Shown: positions 1,896 through 54,477 of the stretch, in pieces
Layout: every line of letters starts with the position of its first letter
Position numbering within the stretch: position 1 is the stretch's first letter
Origin: a virus
Reading direction: 5' to 3' (one strand)
Virus record (IMG/VR): IMGVR_UViG_3300030104_001141
Location: 1 to 58,751 of that record
Length of the DNA: 58,751 nucleotides
Program-made: the position numbers and the translations under genes
The notes under the pieces: generated by a model
Told to the model about the DNA's origin: nothing
Databases searched by the model: none
Seen by the model: the letters and a program-made list of their open reading frames with translations, nothing else

Positions 1896-2177
1896 ATGAA
1901 TAAAATAAAAGCATTGTTGAGTTTGGTTGAATGTGAGATGAAAAGATATTATGACCCCTTTTGGAGTGATGGTAAGGATGTAATCCTTGATGATATCGCC
2001 AGTATTTTGGAGATAGCATCATTACTTTCTAGTGCCAAAGTTAGCAAGAAAGCGTTGAAATCGCATTTCAATACGCTTGATACTGAATTGAGAGACACGA
2101 TTTCATGTTTCTTAAAAAATGAAGATAACATTCATCAAGCCATGTATGAGTGTGGATATATCGTTATTTCTGAATAA
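1896..2177 (+). CDS. Early hypothetical protein
   Basis: This 93-residue, mostly helical protein of no recognised family is the first gene of the rightward early operon. The start at 1896 follows GGAG by seven bases; an in-frame upstream start at 1830 has no such site. It is followed directly by a hammerhead ribozyme that begins one base after the stop codon, so its transcript should be cut from the downstream message. Residues 60-90 contain a short Cys-bearing segment but no metal-binding pattern. Confidence 0.7.
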   Translation: MNKIKALLSLVECEMKRYYDPFWSDGKDVILDDIASILEIASLLSSAKVSKKALKSHFNTLDTELRDTISCFLKNEDNIHQAMYECGYIVISE

Positions 2178-2242
2178 ACCTACTGATGAGCAACACTGAA
2201 AGGTGGCGAAACTTAAGGCTCTTTTGAGCCTTTTGTTTAGGT
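2178..2242 (+). ncRNA. Type I hammerhead ribozyme 1
   Basis: All conserved parts are present in order: stem I strand ACCTA (2178-2182), core CTGATGA (2183-2189), stem II (2190-2207), GAAA (2208-2211), stem III (2212-2235, loop TTTT, one tandem U-U mismatch), UU cleavage dinucleotide (2236-2237) and TAGGT (2238-2242) closing stem I. Self-cleavage is predicted after 2237, releasing the following gene with a 5' leader starting TAGGTAATAA. The first 38 bases are identical to ribozyme 2, whereas stem III differs in sequence but stays paired. Confidence 0.88.
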
Positions 2243-2269
2243 AATAATTTAATTTTATGGAGAAAATTT

Positions 2270-2593
2270 ATGAAAGCAGAAAAAATAATTGAGCATATCA
2301 CTAAATCTTTTAACAAATATCTTGATGAAAGTGGGATGGAAGAACTTATTCCAAACCATAAAAAAGATGCTTGGAAAGATTTGATTATTAGAGAATCTGA
2401 AGAAGAAAATGAAGTGGTTGAGATACTATATGATGGTGGCTACTGTTACGACATGATTAACGAAACATGGGATGAGTGTGGTGGATATACAAACTGGGAA
2501 ACTGCTGAAATGCTATTTGGTTTGAAATCCTTAGAGAAAAAAGGACATGAAGCTGAACCTTATGCATCATGGAAAATATCTGTTTATGCTTGA
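2270..2593 (+). CDS. Early hypothetical protein between two ribozymes
   Basis: This 107-residue acidic protein matches no family I recognise. Visible features are an N-terminal amphipathic helix (KIIEHITKSFNKYL) and a Tyr/Trp/Cys-rich middle around residues 65-85. Its leader is identical over 37 bases to that of the preceding gene, including the ribosome binding site GGAG. It is bracketed by hammerheads 1 and 2, so its mRNA should be excised as a single-gene transcript of about 420 nt. Confidence 0.75.
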   Translation: MKAEKIIEHITKSFNKYLDESGMEELIPNHKKDAWKDLIIRESEEENEVVEILYDGGYCYDMINETWDECGGYTNWETAEMLFGLKSLEKKGHEAEPYASWKISVYA

Positions 2594-2597
2594 TAAA

Positions 2598-2662
2598 ACC
2601 TACTGATGAGCAACACTGAAAGGTGGCGAAACTTGGGACTTTCCGGAGTCCCAATTCTAGGT
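2598..2662 (+). ncRNA. Type I hammerhead ribozyme 2
   Basis: Stem I ACCTA (2598-2602), CTGATGA (2603-2609), stem II (2610-2627), GAAA (2628-2631), stem III with eight consecutive pairs (2633-2640 with 2647-2654), UC at the cleavage site (2656-2657) and TAGGT (2658-2662). Cleavage is predicted after 2657. One C-U mismatch sits at the inner end of stem III. Compared with ribozyme 1, stem III has changed on both strands with pairing kept, which is good evidence for selection on structure. Confidence 0.87.
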
Positions 2663-2697
2663 AATAAACATTAACCAATTAATAGATAGGAGAAAAT

Positions 2698-2886
2698 ATG
2701 AATAAACCTGAAGCAAATAAACTTTACGCCTTAACTGGTGGGACTGGAGAGCCTTGTATTGCAAATGGCAACACTTGGGCAGAAAGTGAAGTTAAACCTA
2801 AATGTAATCGCTGTGGTGTTGTTGTCTTTCCTGAAGATGATAACTGTTGTGATAGATGTTTAGAATTGTCTTTTAACGAGGAGTAA
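2698..2886 (+). CDS. Small zinc-ribbon protein
   Basis: This 62-residue protein has two Cys pairs (CNRCG near residues 36-39 and CCDRC near residues 50-54), a likely zinc ribbon. AGGAG precedes the start. Its N-terminus (MNKPEAN) resembles that of the gene at 3070 (MNEPEAN), so the two may be distant duplicates. The leader follows ribozyme 2 and contains a near-copy of the TATTAA palindrome (2669-2684). Function is unknown; a nucleic-acid-binding or host-takeover role is possible. Confidence 0.7.
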   Translation: MNKPEANKLYALTGGTGEPCIANGNTWAESEVKPKCNRCGVVVFPEDDNCCDRCLELSFNEE

Positions 2887-2888
2887 AT

Positions 2889-3077
2889 ATGACAGAATTT
2901 AATCAAGAAAAATACCTGAAAAAATGCTTGAAAGAAGCAAGAGGAAAATTAGCGTATGCAGTTATGAATGATATGTCTGATGTTGTAATTGAGAGTTGTG
3001 AAGATTCTTGTAAAAGACTTGCTACAGCATTAGAAGATGTTAGATACGAAAAAAAATATGGGAGTGATTATGAATGA
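2889..3077 (+). CDS. Small early hypothetical protein
   Basis: This 62-residue, predicted all-helical protein has three Cys residues (lysine-rich N-terminal half, acidic middle) and no recognised family. It starts three bases after the zinc-ribbon gene, with GAGGAG upstream, and overlaps the next gene by eight bases, so the three genes are translationally linked. Confidence 0.65.
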   Translation: MTEFNQEKYLKKCLKEARGKLAYAVMNDMSDVVIESCEDSCKRLATALEDVRYEKKYGSDYE

Positions 3078-3228
3078 ACCTGAAGCAAATAACGAATCAG
3101 TAAAAATAACCTGTGAAGAATGTTATGGAAGTGGCGTATCAAGAACTATTAATGGAGATATGGGAGTTGATAATTGTTGGTGTTGTGATGGATATGGATA
3201 TTATAGAGAATATTACACTAAGGAGTGA
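3070..3228 (+). CDS. Small DnaJ-type zinc-finger protein
   Basis: This 52-residue protein is built around two CxxCxGxG-like motifs (CEECYGSG and CWCCDGYG), the repeat used by the DnaJ central zinc domain. The J-domain is absent, so it is not a full co-chaperone. The start at 3070 has GGAG six bases upstream and overlaps the previous gene. A zinc-binding adaptor role is inferred only from the motif. Confidence 0.7.
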   Translation: MNEPEANNESVKITCEECYGSGVSRTINGDMGVDNCWCCDGYGYYREYYTKE

Positions 3229-3230
3229 TT

Positions 3231-3359
3231 ATGAATAAATCAAAAAGAAAAGTGGTGGTAAATAAAAAAGATAAATTGATATCTATGAAAATTTACAAGC
3301 CAAAAGTAAAAAAGAAAACAGCATTTCAAGTAGCTTTTGAAAATGCTAAGGGTGTATAG
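3231..3359 (+). CDS. Small basic peptide
   Basis: This 42-residue, strongly basic reading frame starts two bases after the preceding stop, with AAGGAG at the right distance. The N-terminal 30 residues are Lys-rich (KSKRK, KPKVKKK), and the end (FQVAFENAKGV) is less charged. Function is unknown. It is the last gene before the structured leader of the AAA+ gene. Confidence 0.6.
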   Translation: MNKSKRKVVVNKKDKLISMKIYKPKVKKKTAFQVAFENAKGV

Positions 3360-3371
3360 GTAAATTTACCA

Positions 3372-3407
3372 GTGGTTTGGCTAGTACCACATACCTTAAA
3401 ACTAGCC
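3372..3407 (+). ncRNA. H-type pseudoknot in the leader of the AAA+ gene
   Basis: GTGGT (3372-3376) pairs with ACCAC (3386-3390), and GGCTAG inside that loop (3379-3384) pairs with CTAGCC (3402-3407) across an A-rich linker. This is a compact H-type pseudoknot, the fold class used by several small riboswitches and by exonuclease-blocking RNAs. It does not match the preQ1 or SAM-II consensus that I know. It lies just upstream of the hammerhead-like element at 3417. Confidence 0.55.
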
Positions 3408-3416
3408 ATCTAATTT

Positions 3417-3471
3417 TGACTATCGTATAGGAATAGTACCTATGCCTGAATGAGTAACTGCGAAATAGTCA
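3417..3471 (+). ncRNA. Hammerhead-like element, type III arrangement, non-canonical core
   Basis: Stem III TGACTA (3417-3422) pairs with TAGTCA (3466-3471); UC cleavage site (3423-3424); stem I of seven pairs (3425-3431 with 3439-3445); core CTGAATGA (3446-3453), which carries one extra A against CTGATGA; a very short stem II (3454-3461); GAAA (3462-3465). Everything but the inserted A and the two-pair stem II fits a hammerhead opening at stem III. Activity is uncertain. It sits 34 bases upstream of the next gene, as the other ribozymes do. Confidence 0.55.
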
Positions 3472-3504
3472 TTTCAGTTTTATTAATCGCAAAATGGAGT
3501 AAAT

Positions 3505-4488
3505 ATGAAAGCGAAACAATTAGAAAAATCACTTTCGACTCTAATATCTATCAAGCAACCATCATTTATTTGGGGTGGCGTTGGTATTGGTAAATCAGAA
3601 ATTATCCACAAAGTTGGAGAATCTTTGGGTTATCAAATAAGAGATGTTAGGGTTTCACTACTTGACCCTGTGGACTTAAGGGGTATTCCTAGCGTAGAAA
3701 ATGGAACTACTGTTTGGAATCCACCTGTCTTTTTACCTACTGAAGATGAGCCAAAAACATTACTATTCCTAGATGAGTTACCTCATGGGAGTCCTAGTGT
3801 TCAAAATGCATTATTTCAGTTAGTTAAAGATAGGCAATTGGGTGAGTATAAATTACCTGATTCGACAGTCATTGTCAGTGCTGGTAATAGGTTACAAGAT
3901 AAAGCCGGTGCGAATAGGGTTAATACAGCATTGGGAGATAGATTTATTCATTTAGATTTTGAACCTTGTCCTGATGAGTGGATTGCATGGGCAAAATCAA
4001 GTGGAAAGATTATGCCTGAAATCATAGCGTATATGAGATATAGACCGGAGAATTTATTTGTATTTGATAAAAATGCAAGAGTAAATACTACGCCTAGAAG
4101 TTGGGAATATGCTTCAAGGATTATGTCTGAATGTCCTGATTCTGATATTGAGCATGAGTTACTTTCCGGAACTATTGGAGAGGGTGTGAGTGCTGAATTG
4201 ATAGGTTTCTTGAGAACTGTTAGAGGTTTACCATCACTTGATAAAATCTTGAATGACCCTGAGAGCCTTGATACTGAATCTGACCCTGCGATTCTTTATG
4301 CGATTACAAGCATAATTGCTAGGAAGATGGATAAGACAAACATTGATAAGTTTGTAAAATACTTGGACACATTACCTGATGAGTTCGCTATTTTATGTAT
4401 GACTGATGCAGTGGAATCGAATCCTGACATTAGAAAAACCAAAGCGTTTATTAATTTTGATATCAAGCATCAAGACATTACGCTTTAA
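3505..4488 (+). CDS. MoxR-type AAA+ ATPase
   Basis: This 327-residue AAA+ ATPase has Walker A GGVGIGKS (residues 24-31), Walker B LLFLDE (D90, E91), a sensor-1 Asn near 128 (SAGNR) and a downstream LGDRF segment that may carry the arginine finger. Overall it resembles MoxR/AAA_5 proteins, which remodel partner proteins and usually work with a VWA-domain protein. Exactly such a partner lies two genes downstream (5467), with a DUF3150-like gene between. GGAG precedes the start. Its leader carries the pseudoknot and hammerhead-like element, and a hammerhead follows its stop codon, so its message may be processed at both ends. Confidence 0.85.
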   Translation: MKAKQLEKSLSTLISIKQPSFIWGGVGIGKSEIIHKVGESLGYQIRDVRVSLLDPVDLRGIPSVENGTTVWNPPVFLPTEDEPKTLLFLDELPHGSPSVQNALFQLVKDRQLGEYKLPDSTVIVSAGNRLQDKAGANRVNTALGDRFIHLDFEPCPDEWIAWAKSSGKIMPEIIAYMRYRPENLFVFDKNARVNTTPRSWEYASRIMSECPDSDIEHELLSGTIGEGVSAELIGFLRTVRGLPSLDKILNDPESLDTESDPAILYAITSIIARKMDKTNIDKFVKYLDTLPDEFAILCMTDAVESNPDIRKTKAFINFDIKHQDITL

Positions 4489-4549
4489 ACCGACTGATGA
4501 TTAGTTGAGATGCTATGAAAACATCCCATGTATTTGGGATGTTATTGGT
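4489..4549 (+). ncRNA. Type I hammerhead ribozyme 3
   Basis: Stem I ACCGA (4489-4493), CTGATGA (4494-4500), stem II (4501-4516, outer U-U), GAAA (4517-4520), stem III of eight perfect pairs (4521-4528 with 4535-4542), UA cleavage site (4543-4544), TTGGT (4545-4549) closing stem I with one G-U pair. It begins at the base after the AAA+ stop codon. Cleavage is predicted after 4544. Its sequence outside the catalytic core is unrelated to ribozymes 1 and 2, so it is not a recent copy. Confidence 0.85.
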
Positions 4550-4552
4550 AAC

Positions 4553-4574
4553 AAGTATTAACTGATTAATACTT
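4553..4574. repeat. TATTAA-N4-TTAATA palindrome, copy 2 (extended)
   Basis: Perfect copy with nine-base arms (AAGTATTAA and TTAATACTT) around CTGA. It lies between ribozyme 3 and the start of the next gene. Confidence 0.75.
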
Positions 4575-4591
4575 AAACATGGAGAAATATT

Positions 4592-5467
4592 ATGGCAGTA
4601 GCCCTAAATGAAAAAGCCATGCTCATCAAAGTTGAACTCAAGAAATGGGGTGGAACTAAAACTGATAAATCCTTATCAGAAAAAATTGGATATGATTCTA
4701 ATACTGATGCAAGTTTGTATTCAGTATCAAAGAAACTAACCAATTCCACCACGCTGAAAGAGATTAAAAAAATTGATGGATTGATAAGAACTGACTGCAT
4801 CTATTCCGGTGCTGGTTATAGAGGTTTTTGTCATGCATGGGATAATAATGGAAACTATCTATTACCTATTGATGCAAAAGATAGGTTTGAGAAAAGGTTT
4901 TCATCTTATAGAGATGATAGAGAGAAATTGGTAAAACAATTTGTTTCTGAATATCCGGATATCATCAAAGATGCACAAAGAGAATTTGGTGCAAATTTCA
5001 AAGCAGATGATTTTCCACATGAAACTGAAATTGGCGAATGTTTTTCTTGCGAAGTAATCAAGAATGTAGTTCCCTCTACTGATGATATTAGAATTAATTT
5101 ATCAAAAGATGAGATTGATGAACTAAAAGCAAATGCCAAAAAGCAAGAAAATGAAAGAGTAGAAAAGATTACTTCAGATGTTGTTGATAAAATGACTGGA
5201 GTTCTTGGACATCTTGCAGAAAGAATCAATGATGGTGAGACCTTTAGAGATTCTACACTTGATAAGGTTATTGATTTGTGCGAAACAATACCGGCATTGA
5301 ATGTTGGTGGTGATGCAAAAATTCATAAGGCTCATCAAGACTTGATGGACATATTTGCCGGTAATGATATTACTGCTGAATCATTAAGAGATGATAAAGA
5401 CAAGGCTAAAGAAATTGCTAAAAAGTCTGAGGAAATCATTGATGATTTAGAGGGATGGTTAGACTAA
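4592..5467 (+). CDS. DUF3150-like partner of the AAA+/VWA pair
   Basis: This 291-residue protein sits between a MoxR ATPase and a VWA protein, where DUF3150-type proteins are found in other phages. It has a globular first half containing conserved-looking aromatic segments (YSGAGYRGFCHAW near 69-81) and a long helical C-terminal half (residues 165-291), probably coiled coil. GGAG lies upstream. The stop codon overlaps the start of the next gene (TAATG), indicating tight coupling. The family call comes from context and general appearance. Confidence 0.65.
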   Translation: MAVALNEKAMLIKVELKKWGGTKTDKSLSEKIGYDSNTDASLYSVSKKLTNSTTLKEIKKIDGLIRTDCIYSGAGYRGFCHAWDNNGNYLLPIDAKDRFEKRFSSYRDDREKLVKQFVSEYPDIIKDAQREFGANFKADDFPHETEIGECFSCEVIKNVVPSTDDIRINLSKDEIDELKANAKKQENERVEKITSDVVDKMTGVLGHLAERINDGETFRDSTLDKVIDLCETIPALNVGGDAKIHKAHQDLMDIFAGNDITAESLRDDKDKAKEIAKKSEEIIDDLEGWLD

Positions 5468-6573
5468 TGATAATACAAGAAATGACTAAAGCTAGAACTG
5501 AACTTATTATCAAACATCCTTTTTTTGGCAAACTTGCTTTAGGTATGAAAATCGTTGAAAGAGATGATATTGATACAATGGCAGTAGATGGTACTCACCT
5601 GTTCTATAACAAAGAATGGGTGTTAGGTATCACTCATCAAGAAAGAGTTGGTGTAATTGCTCACGAAGTCTTACACATTGTTTTCAAGCATCACTTGAGG
5701 AGAAAAGATAGGTGTCCACATTACTGGAATATTGCCGGTGATTATGTAATCAATGCTATTTTGTTTGAGCATGGATTTATACTACCTGATGGTGGTTTGT
5801 TTGATACAAAGTATGCTAAATGGAAAACTGAATCTGTCTACAAAGAAGTCTTTAAAAATAAAGAGCATGATGATGTCCAAACAGTTGGAGAAGTTATTGA
5901 TGCTACTGGTGAAGATGGTAAAGAACTTACTGAATCAGAACTTCAAGAGATGGAAAAAGAAATCACTGTTCAAGTTTTACAAGCTGAACAAAGTGCTAAA
6001 GGTATGGGTAAAGGTGGAGATGCTACAAAAGGTATGTTAGATATCGTGAAAGAGCAATCTGTTTCTTGGGATGATGTGTTGGCTAACTTAGTGTTGGACA
6101 AAGTAGAAACCAATGATTATAACTTCAATAATGTAAATAGAAGATTTGTACATCAAAATCTTTACTTACCTAGTTGTGAAAAGAAACCTAGTGCAAAAGG
6201 TGTTATTGCTTTAGATATTAGTGGTTCAATCTGTCGTGAAGATATGGCTATGATGCAAGATGCAGTAAACAATATTGTTCCTGTTGCAAACTTCGAGGAA
6301 CTTACAGTTCTTTATTGTGATGATGCAGTTAGGCGTATTGATACTTTTGATGCTAACGAGGAAGTAGAACTTACTTATATGAGTGGGGGTGGTACTGACT
6401 ATGAGCCTGTTATCAAATACATAGACAAAGAACTTGATAATGATATTGCGTTTCTTATCTACCTGACTGATGGATATTGTTATCCATGTAGTGAGCCTGA
6501 CTATCCGGTGATATGGGCAACCACTATGACATCACAATTCTTTAAATTTGGAGATATAGTTGAAGTTGCTTAA
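5467..6573 (+). CDS. Metallopeptidase-like/VWA protein, partner of MoxR
   Basis: This 368-residue protein has a zincin motif HEVLH (H66-H70) near the N-terminus and a VWA-type domain in the C-terminal third with the MIDAS sequence DISGS (D250, S252, S254). This two-part layout is that of DUF2201-type putative metallopeptidases, which pair with MoxR ATPases. The start at 5467 was chosen because it overlaps the upstream stop as TAATG. The triad resembles a chaperone/chelatase-like machine; its target in phage infection is unknown. Confidence 0.82.
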   Translation: MIIQEMTKARTELIIKHPFFGKLALGMKIVERDDIDTMAVDGTHLFYNKEWVLGITHQERVGVIAHEVLHIVFKHHLRRKDRCPHYWNIAGDYVINAILFEHGFILPDGGLFDTKYAKWKTESVYKEVFKNKEHDDVQTVGEVIDATGEDGKELTESELQEMEKEITVQVLQAEQSAKGMGKGGDATKGMLDIVKEQSVSWDDVLANLVLDKVETNDYNFNNVNRRFVHQNLYLPSCEKKPSAKGVIALDISGSICREDMAMMQDAVNNIVPVANFEELTVLYCDDAVRRIDTFDANEEVELTYMSGGGTDYEPVIKYIDKELDNDIAFLIYLTDGYCYPCSEPDYPVIWATTMTSQFFKFGDIVEVA

Positions 6574-34140: not shown

Positions 34141-34584
34141 TTAAACCTCATGCCATTCTTTGCCTTCAAATAGCAAAGCTTCTGCTTCTCGTCTTCTTAT
34201 TAAGCCTTCTAAAACTTTGCCACCTGCTTTGTTCCAGCGTTTAATTTGACTGGGTATTAAATGATAATCTCCTGCATTTAAAAACTTTAACATAGTGGAT
34301 GCTTTTAAATTAGCTGGTCCTAAATTAAATACCCAACTTACTAAAGAATCAAATTGATTTTGTTCTAATTTTACTTTAACTAAATCATTTACATAGCCTT
34401 CATATTCTTCCATTTCATGCAATAACAATTTATCAGCTTCTTCTTGGGTAATAGTATCACCCTCTTTTACACCTTTGGTTGAGCCATATCCTATTGTTAA
34501 AACATTAGCTGCACATTTGTAAGCTTCTAACTCACAACCTTCAAACTTTTTAATTAAAGACAATCCCTCTTGTGATATCTTCAT
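34141..34584 (-). CDS. Endolysin, GH24 lysozyme
   Basis: This 147-residue phage lysozyme hydrolyses peptidoglycan at the end of infection. The catalytic set is E15 (KKFEG), C24 in the position often held by Asp (AYKCAANVLTIGYG) and T30, the Glu-Cys-Thr version known from lambdoid endolysins. The start at 34584 has GGAG six bases upstream; the longer in-frame reading overlaps the holin. No signal peptide or membrane anchor is seen, so it depends on the holin encoded one base upstream. Confidence 0.9.
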   Translation of the reverse strand: MKISQEGLSLIKKFEGCELEAYKCAANVLTIGYGSTKGVKEGDTITQEEADKLLLHEMEEYEGYVNDLVKVKLEQNQFDSLVSWVFNLGPANLKASTMLKFLNAGDYHLIPSQIKRWNKAGGKVLEGLIRRREAEALLFEGKEWHEV

Positions 34585-34585
34585 A

Positions 34586-35065
34586 TTACTCTCCTTTATC
34601 GTTGGTGTGAGATGCTCCAAAATAGAACGAAATAATCGCACTTGCTAATCCTCCAAGATAACCAAGCACTAAATTAATTAATGCTTCGCTGTTTTGTTCT
34701 GGTGGTTGTAATGTTACTAAAAATATATAACCAAGAAAACCGCCTATGGTTACTAAACCAATAATACGAGCAGTCCAATCTTTACTAAACATACCTCTAG
34801 CATGTTGTTTATCTGCTACTTCCAGCTTAAATACATCTACATCAAGTTCTTTCATTTGTACTTCAAACTCTTGTTCTGCTTTCTTTAGCTCCATCATTTG
34901 TTCTGGAGTGGCATTTTGTATTGCTTGTTGTACAGATTTTTGGTCATTAGAAACACCTAAAACTTCTGCTATTTTACCCATAGCCATATTACCAAGAGGT
35001 CCACCCATTGCTGAACCTATTGTAGGTGCTACTGCTCCTACTATATTTTTTAATATTGCTTTCAT
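34586..35065 (-). CDS. Holin (3TM/GTA holin type)
   Basis: This 159-residue protein has a Gly/Ala/Met-rich N-terminus (VGAVAPTIGSAMGGPLGNMAMGKIAEVLG), a charged helical middle, then two membrane spans (IIGLVTIGGFLGYIFLVTL and LVLGYLGGLASAIISFYFG). This is the layout of the 3TM_holin family found in gene transfer agents and phages of alphaproteobacteria. It makes the inner-membrane holes that let the adjacent lysozyme reach the wall. Confidence 0.83.
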   Translation of the reverse strand: MKAILKNIVGAVAPTIGSAMGGPLGNMAMGKIAEVLGVSNDQKSVQQAIQNATPEQMMELKKAEQEFEVQMKELDVDVFKLEVADKQHARGMFSKDWTARIIGLVTIGGFLGYIFLVTLQPPEQNSEALINLVLGYLGGLASAIISFYFGASHTNDKGE

Positions 35066-35078
35066 AAAACTCCTAAAA

Positions 35079-36833
35079 TTAATTTATTGTATATATTTGT
35101 ATAGGTTTTTCTTTGCCTTTTACATATATGCTTTCTAATTCTTTTAATATTATTTCAGAATTAAAGTTTTTTGCGTTAATTGTATTATATCCAATAACAA
35201 TATCTTCACCAACTTCCTTAGTAGAGCTTTCTAATCTAGCAGCAAGATTAACAGCATCGCCTATAGCTGTATAATCAAACCTTGTTTTGCTTCCCATATT
35301 ACCAATAACAGCATAACCAGTATTAACACCTACTCCTATTTCTACATCAATATTAGCTTGTTTAATTTTTTCTTGTATTTCTTTAGCACATAATACTGCG
35401 GCAGTTTCATGGTCTGGTAAATCTATAGGTGCATTAAATATTGCCATCATTGCATCGCCTATATATTTATCTACCATTCCTTGATATTTTTTTACTGCAT
35501 CTGCTTGTATTGTTAAAGCTTTATTCATAATTTTAGTTACTTCTTCTGGTTCAAGCTTTTCAGACATAGCAGTAAAACCTCTTACATCTGTAAATAAAAA
35601 TGTACAGTATCTTCTTTCACCACCTAATACTAATGAATCTGGATTATCTTGTAATTTTTTAACTTGTCTAGGGTCAAGATAATGTTCAAATTGTTTTTTA
35701 ATCTGTTGTCTTAATTTATATTGTTCTCTAAATCTAAGATAAAAAGCTATTGAGCCAGTTATAAATTCAGATATTAAAGTCCATGTAACATCTATTAATA
35801 TTCCTTTTTGTATAAAATAATATCCTGTACTTGCTGTTATAAACATAGTAATTAAACTTAATGTTATTCCCCATGTAATTCCAAAATAAAATAATATATA
35901 CCAAACTAAAGAAACACCTAATACAAATATTAACAAGTTAATACTTATTGCCCAATCAGGTATGTAAGGACTATCTTGTATTAAAATTGATTCTGCAAGT
36001 GCTGCTTGTATTTTATGTGGTTCTAATAAACCAACTGGAGTTGCAATCTGTGGCATAACTCCGTTAGCTGTTACACCTACGAATACAAACTTACCGTTTA
36101 CATTCATTTCTTGTAAATTAGTTTCTTCTGTTTTTACCCAGCTTATCCACTTACGACCAAGACTATCTGTTTTAACTGGTGGTATTCCTCTTATTGATAT
36201 TTCTGATATACCATTATCATTAGTTTTTATAATGTAAGTTTTAACATTAAACAAAGCTTTATATATTTGTGTGCCAAAACTAGGAATCCAATTATCATCA
36301 GGTGTTTTAACTAAAAGAGGTATTCTTCTTACAAGTTGGTCAACTTCTGTGGGAGCAATAGCTAAACCAGATAGCGTTTTATTTGCTAAAAGAGGATGGT
36401 TTTGTTTTACTCCCGAACTAAGTATACCACCATTATTTTCTCCAAGTACAACAGTTCCAGATGTAGAAGGATAAACACCTTTACCATCTTCAAACATAGC
36501 AATTACAGATGGTGCATATTCTAGTGCTTCAGCAAATACTTCATCACCACCCATTCTATCTGCTTGTGGAAAACTAATAACCCAACCAATACCAATAGCT
36601 CCTTTGTTTAGTAAGTCAATTTGTATTTCTGCAAGTCTTTGTCTAGGTAATGGATAACCACCTTCACGCTCTACATCTTCTTCAGTAATATTGAGTATGA
36701 CAAAGTTACCAGACTCTTGAGGTGTTTGTATAAAGGTATCAAATACTTTTAACTTAAGTATTTCTGTAGGTGTTGATTGATATACTAATGGCAATACAAG
36801 TATTATAAGTATTATGAATATTAACTTTTTCAT
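35079..36833 (-). CDS. CHASE2-adenylate cyclase, membrane sensor
   Basis: This 584-residue protein has an N-terminal membrane anchor (3-19), an extracytoplasmic CHASE2-type sensor (about 25-285), three membrane helices (about 296-365) and a class III cyclase domain (about 405-584). The cyclase site looks complete: metal Asp residues D416 (FTDVRGFT) and D460 (GDAMMA), adenine-selecting K456 and D526, and N529 and R533 (DAVNLAARLE). It should make cAMP in response to a periplasmic signal. It starts as TAATG at the end of the FecR-domain gene, forming one unit with the curli-type genes. A bacterial-type signalling enzyme in a phage late operon is unusual. A TATTAA palindrome lies in its coding sequence (35928). 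Confidence 0.9.
   Translation of the reverse strand: MKKLIFIILIILVLPLVYQSTPTEILKLKVFDTFIQTPQESGNFVILNITEEDVEREGGYPLPRQRLAEIQIDLLNKGAIGIGWVISFPQADRMGGDEVFAEALEYAPSVIAMFEDGKGVYPSTSGTVVLGENNGGILSSGVKQNHPLLANKTLSGLAIAPTEVDQLVRRIPLLVKTPDDNWIPSFGTQIYKALFNVKTYIIKTNDNGISEISIRGIPPVKTDSLGRKWISWVKTEETNLQEMNVNGKFVFVGVTANGVMPQIATPVGLLEPHKIQAALAESILIQDSPYIPDWAISINLLIFVLGVSLVWYILFYFGITWGITLSLITMFITASTGYYFIQKGILIDVTWTLISEFITGSIAFYLRFREQYKLRQQIKKQFEHYLDPRQVKKLQDNPDSLVLGGERRYCTFLFTDVRGFTAMSEKLEPEEVTKIMNKALTIQADAVKKYQGMVDKYIGDAMMAIFNAPIDLPDHETAAVLCAKEIQEKIKQANIDVEIGVGVNTGYAVIGNMGSKTRFDYTAIGDAVNLAARLESSTKEVGEDIVIGYNTINAKNFNSEIILKELESIYVKGKEKPIQIYTIN
35928..35943. repeat. TATTAA-N4-TTAATA palindrome, copy 9 (in coding sequence)
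   Basis: Perfect copy with centre CAAG inside the membrane-helix region of the CHASE2-cyclase gene. Confidence 0.6.
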
Positions 36834-37951
36834 TAATCACTCTGAGTTATAGTTATAACAGAATCACTACCACCATTTACTTTAATAACATTAGATATAC
36901 CATCTTGTATAAAAATTACTGTATATGCATTATTTCCATCTAAATCTAACTGCACAGATTCGCTTACACTTCTTCTTAAACTAACAACTTGTCCTGTTAT
37001 TATAGTTGTTATTTGTGTATCAGGGTCTTTACCTAATAATGTTCCTGATATTTGTGTACTTGTAGCTTGTGGTAGTTGGTCTTCTTCTTCAGCTATAGCC
37101 AATCCATCTAACACATTTAATAAATCTTCTAGGTAATTTACATCAAGATAATTTATATCTAACTCTGTAAACTCTAAACTATCTTCTTTTAAATAATCTT
37201 CTGCAAGATAGTCTACATCCAAGTCATTAAAATCAAGTACGCTATCTGTTTGTGTGCTTGTAGCTTCTTCTTCTATAACTACTTCTTCTTTAGGTGGCGT
37301 AACAATTAACATATTATCTATTACATCTAGCGTTAAATCTAAGATAACTGGTTTGCTTGGTGCTGATTCAAATACACTTACTGTAGTCGCTTCATAGGGC
37401 TTACTTAATAAAACTGTTCCCATAGCAGTAACTACTTCTATTTCGCCACTAGAAAGCCCTAGAGAGTCTGGTAGTAGTATTATAAGACTACGACCTAGTT
37501 CATCAACTGTAGCCGTAAAATCAGTCCCTCTAATCGCTATATTAGCTGTAGGTGTTTTAAGAGATATATTTTGTTTATCTATTTTATTAAGATTGCCTGT
37601 AATAAACCTTGCTGTACCAAGACCAAAAGTAAGAGCCATTTTTGCTTTAGATGGGTCAGGGTCATAAATATATTCATCAATAAGTAATTGTGAATGTTCA
37701 GTAAGCTTTACAATAGAATCATCAAGAAATGTAATAGCCATTCTTCCATTAGTAGTAATAGCTTCATCATTACTTTGTATAGCAAATTTTAATTCGGCAT
37801 CTAATGGTTTATCTCGTACTATTTGTGCTGAACCATTTAGTTCAGATATATCTCCAATATCAGCAGCTTGTGCTTGTACCTTGGTCGTTTTGAATGACAC
37901 AGACAGTAGAAGCAGCATTACCGCCAATTGATATAATTTTAAGCCAGTCAT
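36833..37951 (-). CDS. Secreted FecR-domain protein
   Basis: This 372-residue protein has a signal peptide (about 1-28, ending VQAQA), then a FecR-type beta domain (about 31-190) with SELNGSAQIV, ITFLDDSIVKLTEHSQLLIDEY and SLKTPTANIAIRGTDF. A low-complexity acidic segment of DLDVDYL-like repeats (about 235-285) and a C-terminal beta segment follow. Periplasmic FecR-domain proteins are often encoded beside CHASE2 cyclases in bacteria and may be the sensor's ligand or partner. The start lies 92 bases inside the curlin-like gene and has only a weak ribosome site, but it is the only start giving a good signal peptide. Confidence 0.82.
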   Translation of the reverse strand: MTGLKLYQLAVMLLLLSVSFKTTKVQAQAADIGDISELNGSAQIVRDKPLDAELKFAIQSNDEAITTNGRMAITFLDDSIVKLTEHSQLLIDEYIYDPDPSKAKMALTFGLGTARFITGNLNKIDKQNISLKTPTANIAIRGTDFTATVDELGRSLIILLPDSLGLSSGEIEVVTAMGTVLLSKPYEATTVSVFESAPSKPVILDLTLDVIDNMLIVTPPKEEVVIEEEATSTQTDSVLDFNDLDVDYLAEDYLKEDSLEFTELDINYLDVNYLEDLLNVLDGLAIAEEEDQLPQATSTQISGTLLGKDPDTQITTIITGQVVSLRRSVSESVQLDLDGNNAYTVIFIQDGISNVIKVNGGSDSVITITQSD

Positions 37952-38591
37952 TATCTTGGGTGCTCAGTTGTTGTATGTTAAAAGTTCTTTGACCGCCTGT
38001 ATGGTCTAGCCAAAAATATCCACCTGCTGAAGCATTAACACCAGTACCTGTATAAGTTACTGTATTATCAGAACCATCTATATCCATATAGTTTGTTGCT
38101 CCATCAATATTTATATTTGATGTTACTGTGTTGCTAGAACCTTGAATAATCCAATCTAAATTTAAATTTGCTGCTATTGCTGTAGTACCTTGATTTAAGG
38201 TAAATGTATTACTACTACCTGTTACTGCTATATTTTGGTCAGAACCGGCAGAACTATATGTATTAGTTGGGTCTACTTGTATTGTAAAAGTATTTGTATC
38301 TCCAGTAAAATTATATAACCCTGTAAAAGTAGTAGCGTTTATATCACCTAAAAATTTATTGGTATTACCAATCATATTAATATCAAGTGTCATAGTAGCA
38401 CCATCTAAATCAAAAGCAGTTAAACTTCCTGCTGATGAATTAAGTCCACCAATAATATTAGATATACCTAGTTGTTCTAGGTCTATATTAGCTCCAGTAC
38501 CAGACTGGTCTACATAAATTTCGTTATCAGCCGCGTATATTGTCGATGCACTCAGCATCACAATCAGGCTTATTAATTTCAATTTCTTCAT
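37860..38591 (-). CDS. Secreted curlin-like repeat protein
   Basis: This 243-residue protein has a clear signal peptide (MKKLKLISLIVMLSASTIYA, cleavage near residue 20). The mature part opens EIYVDQSGTGANIDLEQLG, which fits the curlin repeat (Q.G..N....Q), followed by further Asn/Thr/Gly-rich strands such as QNIAVTGSSNTFTLNQ. It ends with two Cys residues (VCVIQNDQGTSTSC). It is the likely cargo of the CsgG/CsgF-type pore encoded upstream. No CsgB or CsgE was found. The start at 38591 was chosen for the signal peptide; it overlaps the CsgG-like gene by 65 bases. Confidence 0.75.
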   Translation of the reverse strand: MKKLKLISLIVMLSASTIYAADNEIYVDQSGTGANIDLEQLGISNIIGGLNSSAGSLTAFDLDGATMTLDINMIGNTNKFLGDINATTFTGLYNFTGDTNTFTIQVDPTNTYSSAGSDQNIAVTGSSNTFTLNQGTTAIAANLNLDWIIQGSSNTVTSNINIDGATNYMDIDGSDNTVTYTGTGVNASAGGYFWLDHTGGQRTFNIQQLSTQDNDWLKIISIGGNAASTVCVIQNDQGTSTSC

Positions 38592-39399
38592 ATTTCCAAA
38601 AACTCCTGTCATAACCGACATTAATTATTTCTAATACAGCACTTTCAATAGCTTTTATTAATGCTATTGTTGTTGATTCATTTCTGGAATTACCCATTTC
38701 TATCTCAACAAGTTCTGTTCCTGCTTCTATAAAACGAAATACATCTTCTGATTTGCCATAACTAAATATAGTTTTTTCAGTCATTACTTCTATTAGTATC
38801 TCACCTGTGGCTACTGATACCATTCTTAAAGTTATTGTTACGCTATCTTCTCTATACTGAGCACTAGAACCAATACCTAAATATCTTGCTCCAACACCAC
38901 CTGTAGTTAGATTAGTTTCATAAGCTATAACAGCACCTTCAATCAAAACTCCTGCAAATAATAAAGGTCTTAATGCTTTCTTTTTTTCTTCATCTGATAA
39001 AGTTTGTTCTCTAGCAGACCTTATTAATTGTCTTTCTTTAGTAAGATTATCTAAACCTACTCTTTCAACTACTGTAAAAAACTCTCCATTACCTGCGTGT
39101 TTTAAAGCTCGTATAAGTAGTGCATTTGGTTGTTGTGTTATTGCAGTACTAAATAGTGCAAATTCACTATTGCTTTTTCTTTGACCTGTTTGGTCAGTAA
39201 AAGCTGTAGGATATACAGCTACTACAGGTTTTATTATTGGTTTTTTTACATTAGCTAATTCTTTAGATTGTAATTCAGATATATTTACAACATTATTTGC
39301 TTGAAATCTTTGTTCGTATGTATCTTCAAATTGATTAAATATAGAACAGCTAGAAAGTAAAAGTGCCAATAGGTATCGTAATTTCAGTAACTGTTCCAT
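38527..39399 (-). CDS. csgG: CsgG-like outer-membrane curli secretion lipoprotein
   Basis: This 290-residue protein is near the 277 of E. coli CsgG. It has a lipoprotein signal with lipobox LSSC (Cys18) and almost every CsgG landmark: VAVYPTAFTDQTGQ, FSTAITQ, VERVGLDNLTKERQLIR, EGAVIAYETN, GGVGARYLGIG, QYREDSVTITLRMVSVATGEIL, KTIFSYGKSEDVFRFIE and a final AIESAVLEIIN. CsgG forms the nonameric outer-membrane channel of curli export. By eye the constriction loop differs: of the three E. coli residues (Tyr, Asn, Phe) only the Phe appears kept. It overlaps the CsgF-like gene by 50 bases. Confidence 0.92.
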   Translation of the reverse strand: MEQLLKLRYLLALLLSSCSIFNQFEDTYEQRFQANNVVNISELQSKELANVKKPIIKPVVAVYPTAFTDQTGQRKSNSEFALFSTAITQQPNALLIRALKHAGNGEFFTVVERVGLDNLTKERQLIRSAREQTLSDEEKKKALRPLLFAGVLIEGAVIAYETNLTTGGVGARYLGIGSSAQYREDSVTITLRMVSVATGEILIEVMTEKTIFSYGKSEDVFRFIEAGTELVEIEMGNSRNESTTIALIKAIESAVLEIINVGYDRSFWKYEEIEINKPDCDAECIDNIRG

Positions 39400-39850
39400 C
39401 TGCTTCCGTTATTTTAAGTGTTAAAGTTACACCATCGCTTGTATATTCTATAGTATTACCTTCTAAGGTTATTGTTCCTGAGCTTTGTGGTGTTTCGCCA
39501 AATAAGTTATTTACTAACTGTCTTGATAGTTCTGCATAAACTCTTGATTCTAAGTTACGCATAAATCTTGCAAGTGTAGAGTTTTCTTTTTCTCTTTCTA
39601 TTTCTTCTTGTAAGGCTTTGATTTCTTCTTTAATTGTAAGCTTACGACTAAACTCTTGATTTTCTATAGTTAGGTAGTGCGAAGATGTACCTACGCCATT
39701 AAAGCTAGGCGATTTAAATTTAAAAGTTATAGTATCTGCTTTAATATTTTGTACAAATATTCCTACAAACATAACTATTCCTATAACAGCAAGTATTTTA
39801 ATTATTGTATTTTTTTCTTTTTCAGAAGATTTAATCTTTTCTTTGGTCAT
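39350..39850 (-). CDS. csgF: CsgF-like curli assembly factor
   Basis: This 166-residue protein has an N-terminal hydrophobic signal or anchor (about 18-36), then ITFKFKSPSFNGVG, the diagnostic start of mature CsgF, which plugs into the CsgG channel. It continues with a charged helical insertion, then MRNLESRVYAELSRQLVNNLFG (matching the CsgF helix) and a beta C-terminus ending ITIPIGTFTF. CsgF couples export to fibre nucleation at the cell surface. It is first in the cassette and starts 20 bases inside the preceding small membrane gene. Confidence 0.87.
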   Translation of the reverse strand: MTKEKIKSSEKEKNTIIKILAVIGIVMFVGIFVQNIKADTITFKFKSPSFNGVGTSSHYLTIENQEFSRKLTIKEEIKALQEEIEREKENSTLARFMRNLESRVYAELSRQLVNNLFGETPQSSGTITLEGNTIEYTSDGVTLTLKITEADGTVTEITIPIGTFTF

Positions 39851-40181
39851 CTCTATCCGCCTTTGCTAATCTATCGGTGTGCATTAGTTGTGGTACACCT
39901 AATATAGTTTTTAAAAGTGTGTCTTGTCTAATTATTTCATTATCTACAGAACGAACTCTATCTATAAGAGCAACCAAGATACCGTGTTGTGAGTCTAATT
40001 TTTGACCTAATCTTTGTTCTATTTCAGATATTTGTGCTGATACTTTCTCATCAAGTACATCTACCTTTGTTTCCATGCCGTCAATAATTTTATTAATAAG
40101 CTTCCAGATAAATAAACCAAGACCTATTGCTGCTGCTATAGGAAATCCTACTTCATTAATTAATTGAACTACTGAGTCCAT
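39831..40181 (-). CDS. Small membrane protein, holin-like
   Basis: This 116-residue protein has one N-terminal membrane span (VGFPIAAAIGLGLFIWKLI), followed by a long helical, probably coiled-coil domain. This is the layout of BhlA/UviB-type small holins and of some spanin-like peptides. It could be a second holin or an antiholin, since the 3TM holin lies beyond the curli cassette. The start lacks a strong ribosome site. Confidence 0.6.
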   Translation of the reverse strand: MDSVVQLINEVGFPIAAAIGLGLFIWKLINKIIDGMETKVDVLDEKVSAQISEIEQRLGQKLDSQHGILVALIDRVRSVDNEIIRQDTLLKTILGVPQLMHTDRLAKADRDDQRKD

Positions 40182-40186
40182 TTGAT

Positions 40187-40567
40187 TTAATAGTCACCCC
40201 AAACTTTGCTTTTAGTACCTCCGTGGTACTCAACTGCATGACCCTCGTCTATAAGCATTTGACAAATATCTTTACCATCTTCTGTGTAAGGTATTCCAAG
40301 TATGCGACCATATTTACCTTTACCTAAAGATTTAACTTTTAAATTGCCTACGCAAAGTTCTTTTAATCTTTCTTTAGCAGCAAGACCTAGTTTTTTTTCA
40401 GCTAAGTCTCTAGTACGACTTTCAGGAGTATCAATACCAGCAAGTCTTACACGCTGTTTATGTAGCTTTACATCAAAGCCTAAATCAAGACAACAATCAA
40501 ATGTATCTCCATCTACTATTCTTTCTAATGTGGCGTTATATACAAACGCATCAGGTGCTGTAGCCAT
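40187..40567 (-). CDS. Staphylococcal-type thermonuclease
   Basis: This 126-residue SNase-fold nuclease has the catalytic residues of the family: D21 in VDGDTF, R41 and D46/E49 in RLAGIDTPE, and R88 in KYGRILG. No signal peptide is visible, so the protein is either cytoplasmic or packaged. It cuts DNA or RNA with calcium; in a phage it may degrade host nucleic acid. Starts as TAATG overlap with the basic protein upstream. Confidence 0.87.
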   Translation of the reverse strand: MATAPDAFVYNATLERIVDGDTFDCCLDLGFDVKLHKQRVRLAGIDTPESRTRDLAEKKLGLAAKERLKELCVGNLKVKSLGKGKYGRILGIPYTEDGKDICQMLIDEGHAVEYHGGTKSKVWGDY

Positions 40568-48450: not shown

Positions 48451-48752
48451 TATCTACACTTCCATCTTCTACGAGCCTGTCTAATTCTTGAATTAGGGTC
48501 GTTTCTAGTTTTAGCTGAACTTCTTTTTAGTTGTCCTAAAGACCTAGCACAATAAGACTTTCTTCTTTTAGCAGCTTTACTACCTTTTTTAACTTTACCT
48601 GTTACAGCAGTTTTTAATTTACTTCCGGGATTTTTTTTTCTATAGGCTCTTACACCTTTAGCTGTCATACCAGCACCACTTTTTGTTGGGCGATAATTAG
48701 CACCCTTACCTTTAGTAGTTCTTCTTATAGGATTTTCTTTTTTTCTTGGCAT
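48450..48752 (-). CDS. Small basic protein, DUF6321-like
   Basis: This 100-residue Lys/Arg-rich protein carries GAGMTAKGVRAYRKKNPGSKLKTAVTGKVKKGSKAAKRRKSYCARSLGQ, matching the DUF6321-type block seen in cyanophages and other marine phages. Function is unknown; nucleic-acid binding or packaging is plausible. It overlaps the hydroxylase gene by 41 bases. Confidence 0.72.
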   Translation of the reverse strand: MPRKKENPIRRTTKGKGANYRPTKSGAGMTAKGVRAYRKKNPGSKLKTAVTGKVKKGSKAAKRRKSYCARSLGQLKRSSAKTRNDPNSRIRQARRRWKCR

Positions 48753-49461
48753 AATCTTTATAAAATTGTTTTTCCCATATCTTATGTTTTTTCAAAGGTA
48801 CTTTAAAGTATGGTATTAGTCTTGCACTCTTAACTATACACCAATTAATTAAACTCCAAAACATAGGTAATGGTCTCATATAATCTAAAAATAATACAAC
48901 TCTATCATTGTCTGTCATATTGACTGCAAAATGTTCATATGTATCATCAAATACTACACATTTTCCTTCTTCCCATCTGTATTCTTTTTTATCACAAACT
49001 AAAACACAACCTTCTCCATCTTTAGGTATTATTAAACCTAAGTGTATTCTTATAACACCACACCAAGGACCTTCATGTGGCATGAGCATTTTATTTGGAC
49101 CAAGAACTGAAAAGTATGCAGATACTATATTTCTATCTTTCTCTAGTATCTTCATTGTTTTAGGAAATTGTTTACAGTTTTTTTTAAATTCAACTGTAGC
49201 TGCTTTTAAGAAAAACATTTTCCATTTATCATCATTAGAAATATATATTTGGTCTGGACTTATCTCATGAAATAGAGCAAATTCATTTACTCTTTTCATC
49301 ATTACATCTAATTCTTTTCTAATAATAGGAAAAGCTTCTTCTAAATCTTTAGTAATTGGAAATTGTTCTTTTTTGAAATAAGAACTATTACCTACTAATG
49401 AATTTTTTCTAAAAATGGGTCGCATATATTTTTCAATAAACCACCCATTTACTTCAACCAT
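48712..49461 (-). CDS. Asp/Asn beta-hydroxylase or LpxO-like dioxygenase
   Basis: This 249-residue protein has the core of the Asp_Arg_Hydrox family of iron/2-oxoglutarate dioxygenases: MPHEGPWCGVIRIHLGLIIP (H129, R138, H140), WEEGKCVVFDDTYEHFAVN (H177) and DRVVLFLDYMRP (R187). H129 and H177 should bind iron; R138 and R187 should bind 2-oxoglutarate. The family includes peptide hydroxylase AspH and lipid A hydroxylase LpxO, so it may modify a virion protein or host lipid A. The C-terminal hydrophobic and basic segment favours membrane-surface work. No clear ribosome site precedes the start. Confidence 0.83.
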   Translation of the reverse strand: MVEVNGWFIEKYMRPIFRKNSLVGNSSYFKKEQFPITKDLEEAFPIIRKELDVMMKRVNEFALFHEISPDQIYISNDDKWKMFFLKAATVEFKKNCKQFPKTMKILEKDRNIVSAYFSVLGPNKMLMPHEGPWCGVIRIHLGLIIPKDGEGCVLVCDKKEYRWEEGKCVVFDDTYEHFAVNMTDNDRVVLFLDYMRPLPMFWSLINWCIVKSARLIPYFKVPLKKHKIWEKQFYKDYAKKKRKSYKKNY

Positions 49462-53010: not shown

Positions 53011-54082
53011 TATTCATCTCCTTAGCGACTTGTTTGGCATATTGCTCTGGTGTTATCCCAAGTCTTCTTGCGAGGGAGACTTGAGTTGATGTTAACTGCA
53101 CTTTGCGGGGTATTGCACCATTATTTCTAGTTGCTGGTGCCACCACCGATGAAGGTTTCTTAGAACTCGCAGTTGTAGCAACAACTTCGTCATTGCTTTC
53201 ATCTTGTGTTTCAGTTCCAAAAAACTCAGGAAATTTACTTCGCATACGCTTGTCAACTTCCTGATAATACTGCTCACTTGTAGGGACTATACCTTCATCT
53301 TTAATAAGAGTCTCATGTAATCCATACGCATAACCAGTCATGTCTCTATGTTTTTCATTTCCAAACCATGTATTTTTTTGCAACCATTCAACTGCTTTAG
53401 GGTCAATTGGTGCTTGTGGTACAGGTTGTTCTTGTTGTACAGGTTGTTGTGTCTGTACATTTTGTTCTGTTATTTTATTTTGCTGTTGATAGTAATTTAA
53501 TTTATCGTTTGTTGTTTTTAAATCAACTTGAGAATTTAATATCTTCTCATTAGCTGCCAACATTTTTTCACTATCACCACTTTCATAAGCTTCTTTAAAT
53601 TCTTGTTTAGCTTTATCAATTTCAGCAGTTGCTTTAGCAGATATCTGACCTAATAAAGCTTCTTCTCCTTTATTGATTAAAGCTGACAATCTTTTATTTT
53701 CAGCTAAAACTTGTTGAGCATAACCTACTGATTCGTCTCTTACTTTAGAAGCAGCTTCTTTTGCTCGTCTTTCTTCGTGGTATTCATACTTAAGTCTATT
53801 AATTCTTTTTTTAACTTGTTCATCAATACCATCTATTTCAGATTCTAAATCATCATCATCTTTTTTAGATTCTTTTCTTTTAGGTTTTCTATCAGCTATA
53901 GGTCTATCATCAATAACTTCTACTTCAACTTCATCTTTTGATTCTGTTGTTGTTTCTTTTTTATCAGAAGACTTACCAATAGTAGTCTTTACTCCAAAAA
54001 ATTTATCTTCTGCCGAAGTTTCAGGTTGAGTAATTTCTTCTGTAACTTCTTGTTCTACGGCATTATTTTCTTCTTTCATCAT
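53003..54082 (-). CDS. Scaffolding protein
   Basis: This 359-residue, highly charged protein has an acidic/Lys-rich disordered first third, a long coiled coil (about 85-205), a Gln/Pro linker and a C-terminal helix pair (VSLARRLGITPEQYAKQVAKEM) that could bind capsid. Composition, length and position just upstream of the capsid genes are those of a phage scaffold. It starts by ATGA overlap with the GroES-like gene. Confidence 0.75.
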   Translation of the reverse strand: MMKEENNAVEQEVTEEITQPETSAEDKFFGVKTTIGKSSDKKETTTESKDEVEVEVIDDRPIADRKPKRKESKKDDDDLESEIDGIDEQVKKRINRLKYEYHEERRAKEAASKVRDESVGYAQQVLAENKRLSALINKGEEALLGQISAKATAEIDKAKQEFKEAYESGDSEKMLAANEKILNSQVDLKTTNDKLNYYQQQNKITEQNVQTQQPVQQEQPVPQAPIDPKAVEWLQKNTWFGNEKHRDMTGYAYGLHETLIKDEGIVPTSEQYYQEVDKRMRSKFPEFFGTETQDESNDEVVATTASSKKPSSVVAPATRNNGAIPRKVQLTSTQVSLARRLGITPEQYAKQVAKEMNNG

Positions 54083-54477
54083 ACTACCTTAACTATGCCT
54101 CTTGGGTCTTCAACTACAGCTTCTACACTGTCGTCATTAATTAAACGAAATTCTTTTCCATGTACTAAAAATCTTGTACCTGAATAAGAACGCATAATTA
54201 TCCAATCACCTTCTTTGCAGAAAGGTCCACTTGGAAATCTTTTTTTATCGTTGTAACAATCTTCACCCATTTTTATAACAAAGCCACAAATAGAACCAAC
54301 TTCTTCAACTTGCATTGTTTGAGCTGCTTTTATTATTCCGCCTTTTGTTTTTTCTTCTGCTTCAGGTAAAGCTATTAATAGTTTGTAACCTTTTGGTATA
54401 GGTAGTTGTTTTGCTTTACGAGCTTTTACATCACTCGTATCTTTTTTTGCAGGTTCTACTTTTTTTGTAGATTCCAT
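54079..54477 (-). CDS. GroES-like co-chaperonin
   Basis: This 132-residue protein has a basic N-terminal extension, then a Cpn10-type barrel: LPIPKGYKLLIALPEAEEKTKGGIIKA (first strand and the mobile-loop region that grips GroEL), GSICGFVIKMGEDC, FCKEGDWIIMRSYSGTRFLVHGKEFRLINDDSVEAVVEDP. It probably replaces host GroES to help fold the capsid protein, as T4 gp31 does. It lies between portal and scaffold genes, fitting that role. AGGAG lies upstream. Confidence 0.85.
   Translation of the reverse strand: MESTKKVEPAKKDTSDVKARKAKQLPIPKGYKLLIALPEAEEKTKGGIIKAAQTMQVEEVGSICGFVIKMGEDCYNDKKRFPSGPFCKEGDWIIMRSYSGTRFLVHGKEFRLINDDSVEAVVEDPRGIVKVV

Follow-up and report, generated by a model that had tools for sequence, protein, structure and literature searches.

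A phage curli-type secretion module with a FecR-domain protein and a predicted CHASE2 adenylyl cyclase in a cargo slot beside the lysis genes

Related modules and the layout of the locus

Zaragoza-Solas et al. (2020) reported curli genes in pelagimyophages. For HTVC023P-type phages and pelagimyophages, Wittmers et al. (2022; PMC9599517, cited throughout from a part of its text) have already described which genes the set comprises, how they are ordered, and how widely they occur. In that account of HTVC023P-type phages, the module reads HK, csgF, csgG, csgA/B, and fecR, with a cyclase gene frequently following, sometimes a second csgA/B after fecR, and no CsgC, CsgD, or CsgE. A module is also present in HTVC008M and Melnitz (Buchholz et al., 2022; PMC9004378), which are myophages and carry an extra gene between fecR and the cyclase gene, encoding a curlin-repeat protein in Melnitz. 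Outside phages, the E. coli csgBA/csgDEFG genes share CsgG, CsgF with its docking segment, and the lipobox, and some bacteria encode FecR beside a CHASE2 class III cyclase.

The window analyzed here is the whole of a 58,751-nucleotide viral record (IMGVR_UViG_3300030104_001141). Five overlapping ORFs on the minus strand at 35079-39850 correspond to csgF, csgG, a curlin-like gene, fecR, and a CHASE2 class III cyclase gene. Their coordinates and Pfam matches bear out the preliminary description of a curli cassette joined to FecR and a CHASE2 cyclase in one overlapping unit. The order is that of Wittmers et al. (2022), with one curlin gene, and also that of HTVC008M and Melnitz, whose homologs, including the small gene before csgF, are 30-50% identical. 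Unlike the E. coli system, the module lacks CsgC, CsgD, and CsgE and has an additional FecR protein and CHASE2 cyclase. In contrast to the window, the sampled bacterial FecR-CHASE2 loci have no csg genes within 8 kb, and their FecR tails have no curlin-like score.

The terminase is closest to those of HTVC027P and 023Pt_psg01 (55%); thus, by this single marker gene, the window belongs to a relative of the HTVC023P-type pelagiphages. The virus is probably a marine phage related to Pelagibacter phages, with its host assigned from the relatives of the virus. Pelagibacter is an abundant ocean bacterium.

The five-gene arrangement is not a product of chance. Among contigs with enough flank, reading from CsgG, the curlin gene follows in 74/74, FecR in 71/71, and the cyclase in 60/60. 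The order therefore recurs beyond the window in all 60 contigs that reach the cyclase, as well as in HTVC008M and Melnitz, and a cyclase-based scan yielded at least 588 confirmed relatives. Genes that never co-occur, different donors, or an inactive cyclase would each have spoken against the preliminary description, and none of these appears to apply, judging from the sequences.

Because phages of this kind are already on record as carriers of the module (PMC9599517) and the lysis idea is also in print (PMC9004378), the finding itself is not new. What is added is a cargo slot with empty relatives, domain-wise co-inheritance, and a FecR tail, along with two absences, namely that of a kinase domain in the gene ahead of csgF and that of an apparent cAMP receptor. 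The part of Wittmers et al. (2022; PMC9599517) covered here contains no mention of domain exchange, the empty slot, the FecR tail, or the missing cAMP receptor.

Promoter and terminator scans gave results at or below chance level, and searches for tRNAs and Rfam families returned no matches. Elsewhere, the window encodes consecutive MoxR-type AAA, DUF3150, and DUF2201 metallopeptidase/VWA genes (3505-6573), a 2804-aa ORF that includes a weak ATPase/kinase-like region and two function-unassigned phage families (17854-26268), an Asp/Asn beta-hydroxylase gene (48712-49461), and a GroES-like Cpn10 gene (54079-54477).

Features and co-inheritance of the encoded proteins

All features described below lie on the minus strand. 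The csgF gene (39350..39850; Pfam CsgF, 5e-17) encodes a signal peptide followed by the CsgG-docking segment ADTITFKFKSPSFNGVGTSSHYL (about 39671-39739), which is conserved across 139 homologs with F45, P48, F50, S56, H58, and L60 invariant. The product of csgG (38527..39399; Pfam CsgG, 2e-49), the outer-membrane curli secretion pore, matches E. coli CsgG structures (4e-46), and its lipobox Cys18 (about 39346-39348) is invariant in 143 homologs. The CsgG pore and CsgF that characterize type VIII secretion are thus both present by Pfam, conserved residues, and structure match.

The curlin-like fiber subunit (37860..38621, likely start 38591) has a signal peptide, QxGxxN repeats, and a predicted beta-solenoid. 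The window ORF itself has no Pfam match over the cut-off, and Curlin_rpt is matched by 9 of its 17 homologs (best 9e-6). An HMM built only from the E. coli CsgA/CsgB repeats recognizes the repeats of this curlin type, scoring at least 3 bits in 112/141 curlin homologs versus 1/141 shuffled sequences. Together, the homologs' Curlin_rpt matches and this HMM support the identification of this fifth ORF as a probable curlin. A curlin subunit with repeats is therefore present, though the repeats are degenerate. The structure model (pLDDT 83) consists almost entirely of strands; a fold search with it gave no significant PDB match, which counts against the reading that we favor below.

The FecR-domain protein (36833..37951; Pfam FecR, 3e-9) has a signal-type N-terminal segment and an acidic LDxDYL linker. 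Its FecR domain (about 37499-37756) is confirmed by fold, as the model matches FecR/PupR periplasmic domains. None of the features of anti-sigma FecR proteins (a cytoplasmic N-terminal anti-sigma part, a neighboring ECF sigma factor, or a TonB receptor) was seen. A role as iron regulator was rejected given the signal-type N-terminus and the lack of sigma factor or TonB receptor neighbors.

A strand-Q-turn-strand-Q tail (about 36836-36931 in the window) ends nearly all aligned phage FecR proteins; the regular expression describing it was composed after the tails had been viewed and speaks for conservation only, not as an independent test. Among the FecR segments, a clear match to the curlin profile is confined to the tail, which beats 100/100 column shuffles, with an HHalign probability of only 9% and an AlphaFold confidence of about 40. 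With the CsgA/B repeat HMM, at least 3 bits were reached by 12/150 phage FecR tails, 6/450 shuffled tails, and 0/78 bacterial FecR tails (median bits 0.3, -2.8, and -3.0, respectively). These comparisons suggest a weak resemblance between the phage FecR tail and curlin repeats.

The last gene (35079..36833; Pfam CHASE2, 3e-26, and Guanylate_cyc, 6e-20) encodes a CHASE2 sensor with membrane segments (about 35919-36803) and a class III adenylyl cyclase domain (about 35085-35606). The latter carries the residues that define class III enzymes, namely the two metal-binding Asp D416 and D460, the substrate Lys K456, T522 at the Thr/Ser position, and the transition-state residues N529 and R533. In 164 homologs, D416, K456, D460, N529, and R533 are invariant or nearly so, in agreement with the intact catalytic residues first noted in this sequence. 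The closest solved cyclases include CyaB, and K456 and T/S522 follow the pattern of this aligned adenylyl cyclase. The window enzyme, which we take to be class IIIb, should thus be a membrane cyclase that makes cAMP. Assignment as a Pycsar cyclase was rejected because the similarity to PycC models is restricted to the catalytic domain and the neighbors are csg and fecR genes.

Median dN/dS is 0.14-0.21 across the five module genes, indicating purifying selection, and 0.10-0.21 when the small upstream gene is included, compared with 0.10 for the holin and 0.22 for the lysozyme. Across 110 loci, the distances obtained with CsgF, CsgG, curlin, and FecR show correlations of 0.72-0.87 with one another. 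FecR correlates with CHASE2 (rho 0.62, bootstrap 0.51-0.70) far more than with the cyclase domain (0.14, 0.05-0.29), a difference found in 200/200 resamples, and co-inheritance with FecR drops near residue 360 of the CHASE2-cyclase protein. The contrast is milder among 48 loci with a holin (0.82 versus 0.49). Because CHASE2 is co-inherited with FecR and the catalytic domain is not, exchange of domains is implied; the pattern fits a sensor and FecR partner that stay together while output domains are swapped. However, physical linkage alone yields some co-inheritance and may contribute to the FecR-CHASE2 signal.

Phage FecR and phage cyclase each form one clade relative to the sampled bacterial homologs. 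In 40/70 bacterial loci, FecR and a CHASE2 protein are encoded side by side, confirming that such neighbors exist in bacteria. The further suggestion that the block was captured whole holds in part: csgF, csgG, curlin, fecR, and CHASE2 appear to be inherited together, whereas the catalytic domain seems to have been exchanged and the bacterial loci sampled offer no csg genes nearby. Ten genome-bin loci (L242-L251), labeled Pelagibacter, Maricaulis, Neomarinimicrobiota, and others, carry phage-type curli modules and are probably mis-binned phage contigs in MAGs.

Proposed function and cAMP reception

With moderate confidence, we propose that the phage makes a fiber secretion system whose status is reported by FecR to the CHASE2 adenylyl cyclase. 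A mobile cargo module located next to the lysis genes of this HTVC023P-type relative would equip the infected cell with type VIII secretion and an envelope sensor. CsgG would form the outer-membrane pore in which CsgF docks, and the curlin-like protein would be exported and then assembled as a surface fiber. The periplasmic FecR protein, with its curlin-like tail, could be a minor subunit or adaptor and would signal fiber export or assembly to the CHASE2 domain, upon which the cytoplasmic class IIIb cyclase domain would produce cAMP. Fiber formation, contact of FecR with both the fiber and CHASE2, and cAMP production in vivo are what we infer from these proteins. The weak resemblance of the FecR tail and the lack of an apparent cAMP receptor count against this proposal.

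Reception of cAMP was considered in 118 genomes from the family to which a Candidatus Pelagibacter MAG belongs, a sample that includes MAGs of untold completeness. The cNMP-binding domain PF00027, which is not the sole possible type of cAMP receptor, occurs in 5/118 of these genomes, compared with 94/96 in a control order. In only two of the five is the protein with this domain no longer than 246 aa, a length expected of CRP-type regulators. The domain is absent from 12 phage records. Class III cyclases over the cut-off, and likewise CsgG, occur in the family only in two bins that hold phage modules. These counts weaken the earlier view of cAMP as a direct handle on host physiology. A more specific version of our proposal, which we put forward only tentatively, is that FecR is an envelope-signaling/curlin hybrid that would link phage amyloid export to a phage cyclase in a host lineage lacking class III cyclases and cNMP receptors, with cAMP acting through a receptor of another type or on a target outside known pathways.

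Alternatively, the fiber may only stick infected cells together, allowing sibling capture, or block other phages, with FecR and the cyclase as a feedback regulator that tunes fiber production. Such capture or a superinfection shield has been argued in print (Zaragoza-Solas et al., 2020; Wittmers et al., 2022; PMC9599517, in part), and the full CsgG-CsgF-curlin set is what it would need. However, Melnitz cultures did not clump, and CsgF was argued to have diverged (Buchholz et al., 2022; PMC9004378), observations that also weigh against our own proposal, and a transcriptional route for cAMP was found neither in the 12 phage records nor in the sampled host family. We regard this alternative as possible but unlikely; it is compatible with FecR-to-cyclase signaling and differs in the ecological role.

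It is rather improbable that the pore passes small molecules in or out, gated or plugged by the curlin-like protein and FecR, and that no amyloid fiber forms. The absence of the CsgE gate and of CsgC, the degenerate curlin repeats, and the compact solenoid model are consistent with this option, as is the suggestion that cofactors might cross a pore without a gate (Wittmers et al., 2022; PMC9599517, in the part cited). However, the curlin signal peptide and the conserved CsgF docking segment are hard to account for in a gated pore.

The cargo slot and the lysis genes

On its right, the module is bordered by a putative holin with two membrane segments (phrog_1544; 34586..35065), and a phage lysozyme/endolysin lies outside it (34141..34641; Pfam Phage_lysozyme, 8e-48). 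On the left, csgF is preceded by hol116, a 116-aa holin-like gene with a single membrane segment (39831..40181), and by an SNase-like nuclease gene (40187..40567; Pfam SNase, 3e-13), by synteny the usual left neighbor of the slot. That the module is inserted with a holin-like gene on one side and the holin/lysozyme pair on the other, as first described, is upheld by relatives without the module. The 56-kb record G232 has the order SNase, hol116, holin, and lysozyme, in which hol116 and holin are about 100 bases apart, and contains neither CsgG nor CHASE2. The module-less sites of L238 and L484 look much the same, and L482 has other cargo between hol116 and holin. In L479 and L480, FecR stands immediately before the holin with no cyclase, which speaks against the reading that FecR signals to the cyclase. 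Because the site is empty or differently filled in relatives, the module sits in a cargo slot.

The L482 cargo (2135-5822) encodes proteins of 376 aa, 745 aa (secreted-looking), and 119 aa (coiled-coil). In two module-less relatives, hol116 and holin are separated by a very small ORF encoding a short hydrophobic peptide, at 945-1075 of L473 (G232) and 1265-1400 of L238; in G232 it starts with MTK, like the window CsgF, and is possibly a remnant of the CsgF signal peptide.

The hol116 gene directly precedes csgF in 74/75 contigs, and among phage records its homologs are limited to HTVC008M and Melnitz. It is probably the 'histidine kinase' (HK) that precedes the module genes in the part of Wittmers et al. 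(2022; PMC9599517) cited, to judge from its position and the 'sometimes two' copies; however, neither Pfam nor NCBIfam found a kinase domain in the window counterpart. Strict membership in the module was rejected, as hol116 is retained in the module-less G232, L238, and L484 and shows near-zero co-inheritance. The gene is associated with the module yet separable. Its distances show no correlation with those of the csg and cyclase genes, and it can be up to 100% identical where these are only about 50-60% identical (e.g., L165).

Since the slot is variably filled, closeness to the lysis genes need not mean a role in lysis. Lysis timing by a pore or cAMP signal that responds to the envelope, as the preliminary description suggested and as proposed for Melnitz with CsgG as a pinholin analog (Buchholz et al., 2022; PMC9004378), is not supported and is rather improbable. 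In its favor, the module of the window is flanked by a holin-like gene and by holin/lysozyme, and a holin or lysozyme occurs at most 3 kb downstream in 86/105 podo-type contigs. Against it, the modules of HTVC008M and Melnitz lie apart from the annotated lysis genes, the podo-type slot is empty or holds unrelated cargo while the lysis genes persist, CsgG is an outer-membrane lipoprotein, and no cAMP effector was found in the sampled Pelagibacter family or the 12 phage records.

For a fiber secretion system that reports to a cyclase, the exchange boundary in the CHASE2-cyclase protein and the FecR tail provide a testable model of mutually recognizing parts. If the cyclase works, infected cells would receive cAMP although no receptor for it is evident in them, and the effect of this signal becomes a concrete, testable question.
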